Assembly (NCBI GenBank): GCA_019119265.1
Contig: DWXI01000070.1
Span: 1 to 42,373, forward strand
DNA length: 42,373 nucleotides
Direction of reading: 5' to 3'
Source of the DNA: Candidatus Mediterraneibacter intestinigallinarum
Lineage (GTDB): Bacteria > Bacillota > Clostridia > Lachnospirales > Lachnospiraceae
Numbering within the stretch: position 1 is the first letter of the stretch; each line of letters begins with the position of its first letter. Both the position numbers and the translations under genes were made by a program. The notes below the pieces were generated by a model that was not told the origin of the DNA, did no database searches, and saw nothing but the letters and a program-made list of their open reading frames with translations. Below are positions 36,923-38,949 of this stretch, in pieces.

Positions 36923-37951
36923 TCACGCCAGGAATTCTTCCAGTATCTGACGGATCGCCTCCTCCCTCAGTGCAGGCCTGTCATCATCTGTTCCGGTCTG
37001 CGCCGCATGACGCAACGCTTCACGGGCAGTTTCCCCTTTCTCATTATTCCTTGGTTCGCCTTCGATATTGATAGACAGTCCTCCTTTCCCGTTTTCCCTG
37101 CGCCCTGACGGTTCTGAAGACTGCCTTGTCGTCCTGACTGTTCTTACATTTCTCAGACTATGTTCCCCGGTGCGGGATTCCTGACTTTCATATTCTGCAT
37201 CTCCCCCTGACGGATCCGGCCCTGCCGCTCTGGTTCCTTCTGTCTGAACAGTCTGGACAGGTGCATCAGCTCCGGCATAAACCTCCTGTCCATCGGCTCC
37301 GGCCAATACCGGATTCCCCGAAGCATTTCTGTCTGTTCCGCGGCTTCTTCCGCTTCCTGCCGTCTGGAACTTATTCTTTCCATTTCCTTCTGCAGATATA
37401 ACATCTATAAATTCCCTTTCTCTGGCGCTCTGCCTGCGCAGCCGGAATGTACAGATATTTTCGAGGTAATCTACCATATACATCTTGATCGCATTCACCT
37501 TGTACGGTTCATCGCTCAGACGCATGATCACCATGAGCAGAACTGTCTCTGCCGTTCCCGCAGCAATATATTGATAAACGGATTCCGAGAATCCGGAATA
37601 AAAGTAAAGTACTGACGCCCCGAGTGCAGCCAGTATCCCGGCAAACCAGACAGATAATATCTCAATCTGCCTCCATGTATGTATGCGGAATAAAAACCCG
37701 CGATATTCATAAATATATTTTTCCACAAACGCATCAATGTTTTCCACAGAATCCCGGATCATACATGCGTGTTCGTATTTTGCTCTTACCAGCTTTATCA
37801 GTTTGTGCGTGCTCTTCGGCATGTTTCCTGCCGCCCTCACCAGCCTGTGCAAAGTCAGATGATTGACGATCTTAGCAAAAATCCCCAATACACCGACCGC
37901 TGCCATCAGATATGTAATGACACTGGTATCCGCTGCCAATCCTTCTAACAT
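36923..37951 (-). CDS. Hypothetical membrane protein with long polar C-terminal tail
   Basis: Three or so TM segments (VITYLMAAVGVLGIFAKIV; VWFAGILAALGASVLYFYSG; YIAAGTAETVLLMVIM) followed by about 150 aa of Gly/Ser/Glu/Arg-rich sequence; start at MLEGLAADTSV. Confidence 0.65.
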   Translation of the reverse strand: MLEGLAADTSVITYLMAAVGVLGIFAKIVNHLTLHRLVRAAGNMPKSTHKLIKLVRAKYEHACMIRDSVENIDAFVEKYIYEYRGFLFRIHTWRQIEILSVWFAGILAALGASVLYFYSGFSESVYQYIAAGTAETVLLMVIMRLSDEPYKVNAIKMYMVDYLENICTFRLRRQSAREREFIDVISAEGNGKNKFQTAGSGRSRGTDRNASGNPVLAGADGQEVYAGADAPVQTVQTEGTRAAGPDPSGGDAEYESQESRTGEHSLRNVRTVRTTRQSSEPSGRRENGKGGLSINIEGEPRNNEKGETAREALRHAAQTGTDDDRPALREEAIRQILEEFLA

Positions 37952-38240
37952 AGCAAACCCTCCTGTTTTATGAATTACCCACAATGTTCTTGTGTTTGTG
38001 GTCATTATAGTCCATCACAGGCGGGTTGTCCGCAAAAACCGTTCTACATATTTCTACATCGGGCGGCTCCTTGTTCTGGATTTTCTGTCGTCTGAAATTA
38101 AGTCTTAAATACCTGAGATTTTCCCTGAAATCGTTCAGGGAGAACAGTTTTGCTTTCATAATAAAGGCCGACTTGCCCTGTTATATGCCGTTGTCACATC
38201 CGGTCATAGCAGGGCGAAAGATGGGGGATAAAAATTGGGG

Positions 38241-38402
38241 GTAACAGTTCAGCCATCAGGGATGGAGGGGAGATTTATGCTTGCATAAGAATCGGCCCGC
38301 TCCATCCCTGATGAGCTAAGCGCCTGTCCATGAGTAAAACAGTGGCGATAGCCACAATAAGCACGAAGTGCGGTTTTACGAATAGCGCGGCTGAACTGTT
38401 AC
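38241..38402. repeat. Structured, nested inverted-repeat element (MITE or ncRNA candidate)
   Basis: Arms gtaacagttcagcc 38241-38254 / ggctgaactgttac 38389-38402; catcagggatggag 38254-38267 / ctccatccctgatg 38300-38313; gtaaaac 38334-38340 / gttttac 38373-38379; gtggc-gata-gccac 38342-38355; gcac-gaa-gtgc 38361-38371. Confidence 0.8.
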
Positions 38403-38482
38403 AAGTTCACCCCTCATTGAATTTTCTTCTTTCATTTGCTATAATGGCTTCTGTTACAAAAGACAGCAGGAGGTGTCAGAAG

Positions 38483-38725
38483 ATGGATTATAAGCCAAAG
38501 GGCGTCTGTTCCCAGCAGATTCATTTTGACATAATAGATAACAAAGTAAGAAACGTTTCTTTCGTCGGCGGCTGCCACGGAAATCTGCAGGGAATCTCAC
38601 GTCTGATCGAAGGAATGGATGTAAACGAGGCAATCTCACGCATCGATGGAATCAAATGCGGTTTCAAGTCAACATCCTGCCCGGATCAGCTCGCACAGGC
38701 ATTAAAACAGGCAGTCGGTCAATAG
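38483..38725 (+). CDS. TSCPD domain-containing protein (TIGR03905-like)
   Basis: MDYKPKGVCSQQIHFDIIDNKVRNVSFVGGCHGNLQGISRLIEGMDVNEAISRIDGIKCGFKSTSCPDQLAQAL; RBS aggaggtg upstream of ATG at 38483. Confidence 0.9.
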   Translation: MDYKPKGVCSQQIHFDIIDNKVRNVSFVGGCHGNLQGISRLIEGMDVNEAISRIDGIKCGFKSTSCPDQLAQALKQAVGQ

Positions 38726-38800: not shown

Positions 38801-38949
38801 TCCTCCATTAAGCCCTGAGAGCAGCCGCCATATGTATCGCCGTTTATTTGTGGTGTTTCCTCGGAACAGGTTCTCAAATTTATATTAATCTGATTGTTAA
38901 TAGTTTCCGTGGCGCACAGTGGCGGCTGCTCTCAGGGTTTAATGGAGGA
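38801..38949. mobile_element. MITE-like element with 30-bp terminal inverted repeats
   Basis: tcctccattaagccctgagagcagccgcca (38801-38830) vs tggcggctgctctcagggtttaatggagga (38920-38949): 29 of 30 complementary; no coding capacity. Confidence 0.7.

Follow-up and report, generated by a model that had tools for sequence, protein, structure and literature searches.

The sequence at positions 38241-38402 of the window (the whole 42,373-nucleotide stretch analysed here) is one copy of a MITE family of the IS66 type that is both real and new and whose folded core is strand-specific and unusually conserved. The mobility of this family is firmly established, and statistics show that its interior is a two-armed core under selection for folding of the single + strand. 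Overall, we regard it as highly probable that the MITE is moved by an IS66-family transposase and that its core is selected to fold on the + strand; action of the core as DNA is favoured by a narrower margin. The element and its surroundings comprise the following parts:

36923-38005, - strand: divergent flanking gene of no known family.
38241-38402, + strand: whole element, one copy of the MITE family (162-168 bp), as judged from copies in its own genome and the empty orthologous site in congeners.
38241-38254, + strand: left terminal inverted repeat (TIR), GTAACAGTTCAGCC, identical to one end of a congener's IS66-type transposon.
38254-38313, + strand: arm A, a long hairpin that varies between copies and is capped by a gCNNGc loop (CTTG, 38280-38283), supported by compensatory change.
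38320-38388, + strand: arm B, conserved and branched with two hairpins, with about 98% of stem cells paired and with compensatory pairs; order GCGC / AT-GA / GTAAAAC...GTTTTAC / GA-AT / GCGC, including a tandem G.A internal loop.
38342-38355, + strand: hairpin B2, GTGGC-GATA-GCCAC, with a cGNNAg loop.
38361-38371, + strand: hairpin B3, GCAC-GAA-GTGC, with a cGNAg loop.
38389-38402, - strand: right TIR, from a TIR search and comparison with the IS66-type transposon.
38417-38445, + strand: conserved host promoter-like site TTGAAT-17-TATAAT of the TSCPD gene, not part of the element.
38483-38725, + strand: flanking gene for a TIGR03905 family TSCPD-domain protein.

Most of this architecture had been described in the first-pass annotation, made from the letters alone. 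The 14-bp outer arms, the two small hairpins and the pairings of arm B (GCGC 38320-38323 with 38385-38388; GTAAAAC 38334-38340 with GTTTTAC 38373-38379) were all recovered. The arm A stem (38254-38267 with 38300-38313) stands as well, but its tip is better read as TTATG-CTTG-CATAA; moreover, the outer stem and arm A both exist, but C38254 had been counted in both and can pair in one alone. A further stem at 38175-38215, offered as a possible part of the element, does exist, yet it falls beyond the edge of the insertion, in host intergenic DNA that is also present, unpaired, in element-free congeners. The element itself ends about 14 bp upstream of the TTGAAT-17-TATAAT site, and an open reading frame starting inside it (38330-38725) was dismissed as an open-frame artefact because its start lies upstream of the TSCPD gene promoter. 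Upstream of the element, the divergent intergenic region also holds a terminator-like hairpin on the + strand (38119-38144), and the next intergenic stretch contains a 30-bp inverted repeat (38801-38830 / 38920-38949, 97%), to which sequence in G002 and G009 is related.

The layered complementarity, which had been thought too extensive for chance, exceeds it by a wide margin. Folded as RNA, positions 38160-38420 reach -110.6 kcal/mol (z = -6.9), and folded as DNA, positions 38241-38402 reach z = -8.0, with 0/200 shuffles as good in either case; compensatory change across the family adds to this. No Rfam model matched the element at its gathering threshold. Matches to miRNA families (mir-961 and others) were rejected as generic long-hairpin matches, and a hammerhead-like reading of AUGAG...CGAAU was discarded by inspection since the CUGANGA core and the cleavage site are absent.

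The homology search and covariance model that the first-pass annotation had proposed both reveal a large family. In its own genome, an assembly of 258 contigs that totals 3.11 Mb and is 88.5% complete, a DNA search finds the element at 44 places, and with a covariance model based on 27 copies the count is 46. Full copies measure 159-168 bp with sharp ends, GTAACAGTTCAGCC...GGCTGAACTGTTAC, and the 14-mer GTAACAGTTCAGCC occurs, with at most one mismatch, at 25 sites on each strand of this genome compared with 0 for the reversed control. With a length of 162-168 bp, many dispersed copies and no transposase gene of its own, the element has the properties by which MITEs are recognised, the usual size being below about 200 bp. 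Within the genus, the covariance model detects the family in 19 of 25 genomes, at 0-54 copies each, and in 0/16 genomes from other families of the same order; the genus holds several hundred copies in all. Named carriers are Mediterraneibacter species (M. catenae among them), [Ruminococcus] torques (including ATCC 27756) and Merdimonas faecis, joined by a few MAGs labelled Blautia, Dorea or Choladousia. Viral carriage was rejected, as an exact search of IMG/VR gave no match to the core pattern. The family provides ready strain markers and causes intergenic regions to vary within Mediterraneibacter.

Shortened forms retain the same ends: L064 lacks arm A, L037 lacks arm B, and in L053, L059, L060 and L061 almost the whole interior is gone. 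Additionally, units consisting of arm B by itself adjoin full elements (L035:1414-1485 and the right flanks of L012, L023, L029 and L094), as if arm B were duplicable on its own. Copies also lie beside an L10 leader, a T-box-like leader and a TPP riboswitch (L004:1686-1829, L014:1693-1947, L024:1617-1727). Another long structured sequence, at L034:1501-1678, has CCTTGCA/TGCAAGG ends and an arm capped by GTGCTTGCAC, and may represent a further repeat family.

Movement of the family is recorded in its flanks. Across 121 copies, the 8-bp flanks have a mean identity of 0.55 versus 0.32 (z = 17.2), k = 8 alone stands out among the lengths tested, and 30 of the copies match at 7 or more of the 8 positions where 0.9 would be expected. 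Recent copies show exact 8-bp target duplications, and the insertion targets are T-rich on the + strand. The window copy has no recognisable target site duplication (TSD), which marks it as an old insertion, and the case for its own transposition therefore rests on empty sites and on the family. G004 has the same insertion, agreeing with the window copy at 26/26 positions of the TIRs, 59/60 of arm A and 71/71 of arm B, and the locus is empty in G002, G009, G013, G015, G006, G012 and G007, with continuous intergenic DNA. Two further sites show the vacant target itself. At the site of a copy between gyrB and gyrA, G002 has a single GATAAAAA and no element, and at the site of L064 a lone 8-mer, TATCTGTA or a close variant, is found in G001, G009, G010, G012 and G015; single 8-mers at both empty sites are as an 8-bp duplication predicts. 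Thus, the miniature transposon suggested by the first-pass annotation is borne out by dispersed copies, terminal repeats, 8-bp TSDs, unoccupied sites in congeners and a complete transposon that has these same ends.

GTAA ends together with 8-bp duplications form an IS66 signature; IS66 elements have ends starting GTAAGCG and 8-bp repeats (PMC11946415). IS66 transposases were sought in 58 congeners. One of these alone, G017, carries an IS matching the MITE ends, and it is also the congener with most MITE copies (54). The matching IS (L277:149-1968, 1,820 bp) is bounded by the TIRs GTAACAGTTCAGCC and GTAACAGTTCACCC and by an 8-bp TSD, CGAAAAAA, and encodes one 485-aa IS66-family transposase, which scores 75.5 bits against PF03050 and 145.6 bits against NF033517, the latter under that model's cut-off. 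A fragment from another genus is 66% identical to L277 and likewise has GTAACAGTTCA upstream. From these sequence matches we infer that an IS66-family transposase moves the MITE via its 14-bp ends. The window's own genome, at 88.5% completeness, yielded neither a PF03050 transposase nor L277-like DNA; the enzyme may have been lost, may lie in unassembled sequence or may be supplied transiently. L275, L276 and L288 contain a different group of IS66-type transposons, about 2.3 kb long and bounded by GTTACTGTTCA...TGAACAGTAAC.

Compensatory substitutions, whose absence from alignments had been named as counting against such an element, are present in both arms. The arm A sequence is very different from copy to copy; because the inner arm A columns (helices 3 and 4) are partly mis-set in the structure of the covariance model, this arm was judged by an alignment-free test, in which its halves pair with a score of 15.9 within a copy versus 3.5 between copies. 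In arm B, one position is occupied by TA in 60, CG in 39 and GC in 17 copies. For the whole structure, two-sided changes are seen in 28 pairs versus 18.5 in shuffles, a figure understated by the same mis-set columns, and shifting the pairing partners along the sequence reduces the structure score.

The fold is moreover strand-specific. In the arms, G.U pairs outnumber A.C pairs by 114 to 45, compared with 48:54 in the terminal repeats (Fisher p = 8e-5, the copies being related and the counts not independent); for arm A, counted as distinct position-events, G.U exceeds A.C by 37 to 21 (p = 0.048). With the bias present in the arms and absent from the TIRs, the ends behave like sites bound in double-stranded form, and the arms like a strand under selection to fold. 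Folding of both strands, as the first-pass annotation had advised, gives the more stable structure on the + strand in 113/121 copies with RNA parameters and in 117-121/121 with DNA parameters. Compensatory changes on one strand are the mark by which non-coding RNAs are recognised, and they are present here; a folded single DNA strand is equally expected to show them. The proposed folded RNA or ssDNA substrate thus holds to the extent of a strand-specific fold, in either RNA or ssDNA. A reading of purifying selection from orthologous copies was abandoned: arm B is often above its flanks in conservation, and conversion between copies confounds the comparison.

Such conversion is also the starting point for an explanation that we consider unlikely, namely that the arms are no more than relics of nested insertions, held in pairing by gene conversion between copies and by palindrome-correcting repair, so that the core would be a passive palindrome in decay with no selected function. 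At one genomic site in three genomes (L009, L132 and L137), arm A has been exchanged in full (52% identity) beside an identical arm B and flanks of 88-99% identity, so that conversion between copies does occur and is the likely cause there; the deletion derivatives without arm A, without arm B or without both speak for this account as well. Strand-symmetric repair, however, would be expected to produce neither a G.U excess restricted to the arms, nor the conserved unpaired GA/GA and the loop rules described below, nor one strand that consistently folds better. The strand-specific G.U excess, together with the compensatory pairs and the better folding of the + strand with RNA parameters, fits a core that is transcribed, either as a small structured RNA from the + strand or as a processing site in the neighbours' transcript, and that the mobile ends merely spread, as has been proposed for ERIC and Neisseria (Correia/NEMIS) repeats. 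This account also draws on a layout resembling Rfam Clostridiales-1, classed as 'probably RNA', and on other MITEs with known RNA effects (PMC2229807); we nevertheless find it doubtful, if a little less so than the passive palindrome. The window copy has no internal promoter-like site, and the family is wholly absent from some congeners, which argues against an essential RNA. Between co-directional genes, copies lie antisense in 48 cases versus sense in 20 (by a crude ORF caller), and the + strand has a negative GC skew in 84/114 copies (p = 4e-7); antisense placement and opposition to the skew are odd for transcribed RNA genes.

The loops point in the same direction. RNA is expected to favour GNRA loops, but the tetraloops of the family are GNYA in 90 cases and GNRA in 11 (11/101 G..A tetraloops). 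The apical loops have the form C-GNA-G or C-GNNA-G in 102/120 copies for B2 and 111/120 for B3, and arm A is capped by G-CNNG-C in about 110/120; the exceptions with GTAT also fit GNAB, and CUUG is stable as an RNA loop as well. As the copies share descent, these loop counts too are not independent. Nakano et al. 2002, listed among the references of PMC2984261, gives d(cGNNAg), d(cGNABg) and d(gCNNGc) in its title as tetraloop motifs that are stable in DNA, and d(GCGAAGC) appears as an extraordinarily stable DNA mini-hairpin in the reference list of PMC10527192. Since the loops obey DNA-hairpin rules and the copies mostly oppose the inferred replication direction, we lean, by somewhat better than even chances, towards action at the DNA level, with the core as a folded single DNA strand rather than a transcribed RNA or a sequence without function. 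The orientation bias itself could stem from the T-rich, strand-asymmetric target instead of the fold; recent, TSD-bearing copies split 19:11 and old ones 45:14, both being small numbers.

The resemblance to Clostridiales-1 (RF01699) raises the question of membership, and it is very improbable that the element is a divergent member of that family. Several copies give full-length matches of 21-35 bits (E 2.5e-4 to 0.08), the two share a GCUUGC-capped arm and UGAG/CGAAU, and the Clostridiales-1 profile matches 38/121 copies, always collinearly and on the + strand, versus 23/1210 shuffles. All scores, however, fall below the gathering cut-off of 48 bits (window copy, 21.3; best of 20 loci scanned, 34.5; L035, 40.8), and miRNA hairpin models score alike. 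Arm B by itself has no Clostridiales-1 match, the MITE model finds no convincing match in true Clostridiales-1 copies, and plain alignment gives z of 1.3-2.7. Furthermore, GTAACAG...CTGTTAC ends with an 8-bp TSD stand against GATGCC...GACATC ends with a 7-bp TSD. With its sub-threshold scores, no reciprocal match and different ends and TSD length, membership was rejected.

An unexpected result is that Clostridiales-1 is mobile too and duplicates 7 bp of its target. In G052, a closed congener genome with dnaA at position 1, it has at least 40 copies (L341-L380) as a 194-bp unit extending beyond the Rfam model; exact 7-bp duplications flank 22/39 copies (z = 10.9), and 32/40 copies lie against the replication fork (p = 1.8e-4). 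Copies are also present in the window's own genome (L031-L033). Weinberg et al. 2010 listed Clostridiales-1 as 'probably' RNA, and its mobility changes how RNA candidates from comparative genomics, such as Rfam 'sRNA' families, are read. Two unrelated MITE families of one genus would share a strand-specific core with DNA-type loops that mostly opposes the fork, conceivably an ssDNA module, not an RNA, that aids spread or persistence; we put this forward as a speculation with the odds against it. If true, such a module might, for instance, tie transposition to replication.

In the mechanism that we favour, an IS66-family transposase would act on the 14-bp ends of a non-autonomous MITE and move it, with insertion duplicating 8 bp of a T-rich target. 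The two-armed core between the ends would fold as a single strand in the + orientation, and this folded form would act as DNA, in a single-stranded state that replication or transposition exposes, not as transcribed RNA. MITE interiors are usually taken as leftover spacer; here, one strand of the interior is under selection to fold. With an IS66-type partner known and culturable gut hosts at hand, the role of the folded core is open to testing.

Compared with known systems, the family resembles IS66 insertion sequences of the single-ORF type, and MITEs derived from such elements, in its ends beginning GTAA, its 8-bp target duplication and the 14-bp end shared with L277, but its ends read GTAACAG instead of GTAAGCG and it has no coding capacity. 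Unlike the L277 transposon, it has an interior unrelated in sequence and conserved as a fold. Clostridiales-1 is similar in size and in its stem-closed three-way junction with a GCUUGC-loop arm, a UGAG...CGAAU tandem-GA arm and a C-GNA-G hairpin, and is likewise dispersed and mostly against the fork; it differs in its terminal stems and in a TSD of 7 instead of 8 bp, and sequence similarity is very weak. Further, RUP, BOX and SPRITE of pneumococcus, ERIC, Correia/NEMIS and YPAL are also short, non-coding, intergenic mobile repeats with strong folds (PMC2229807, PMC3049150), and for RUP, too, mobilisation by an IS acting in trans has been proposed (PMC2229807, PMC3049150), whereas hosts, transposase families and target duplications differ. 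While BOX, RUP and SPRITE follow the coding-strand bias (PMC3049150), the MITE family described here opposes it.
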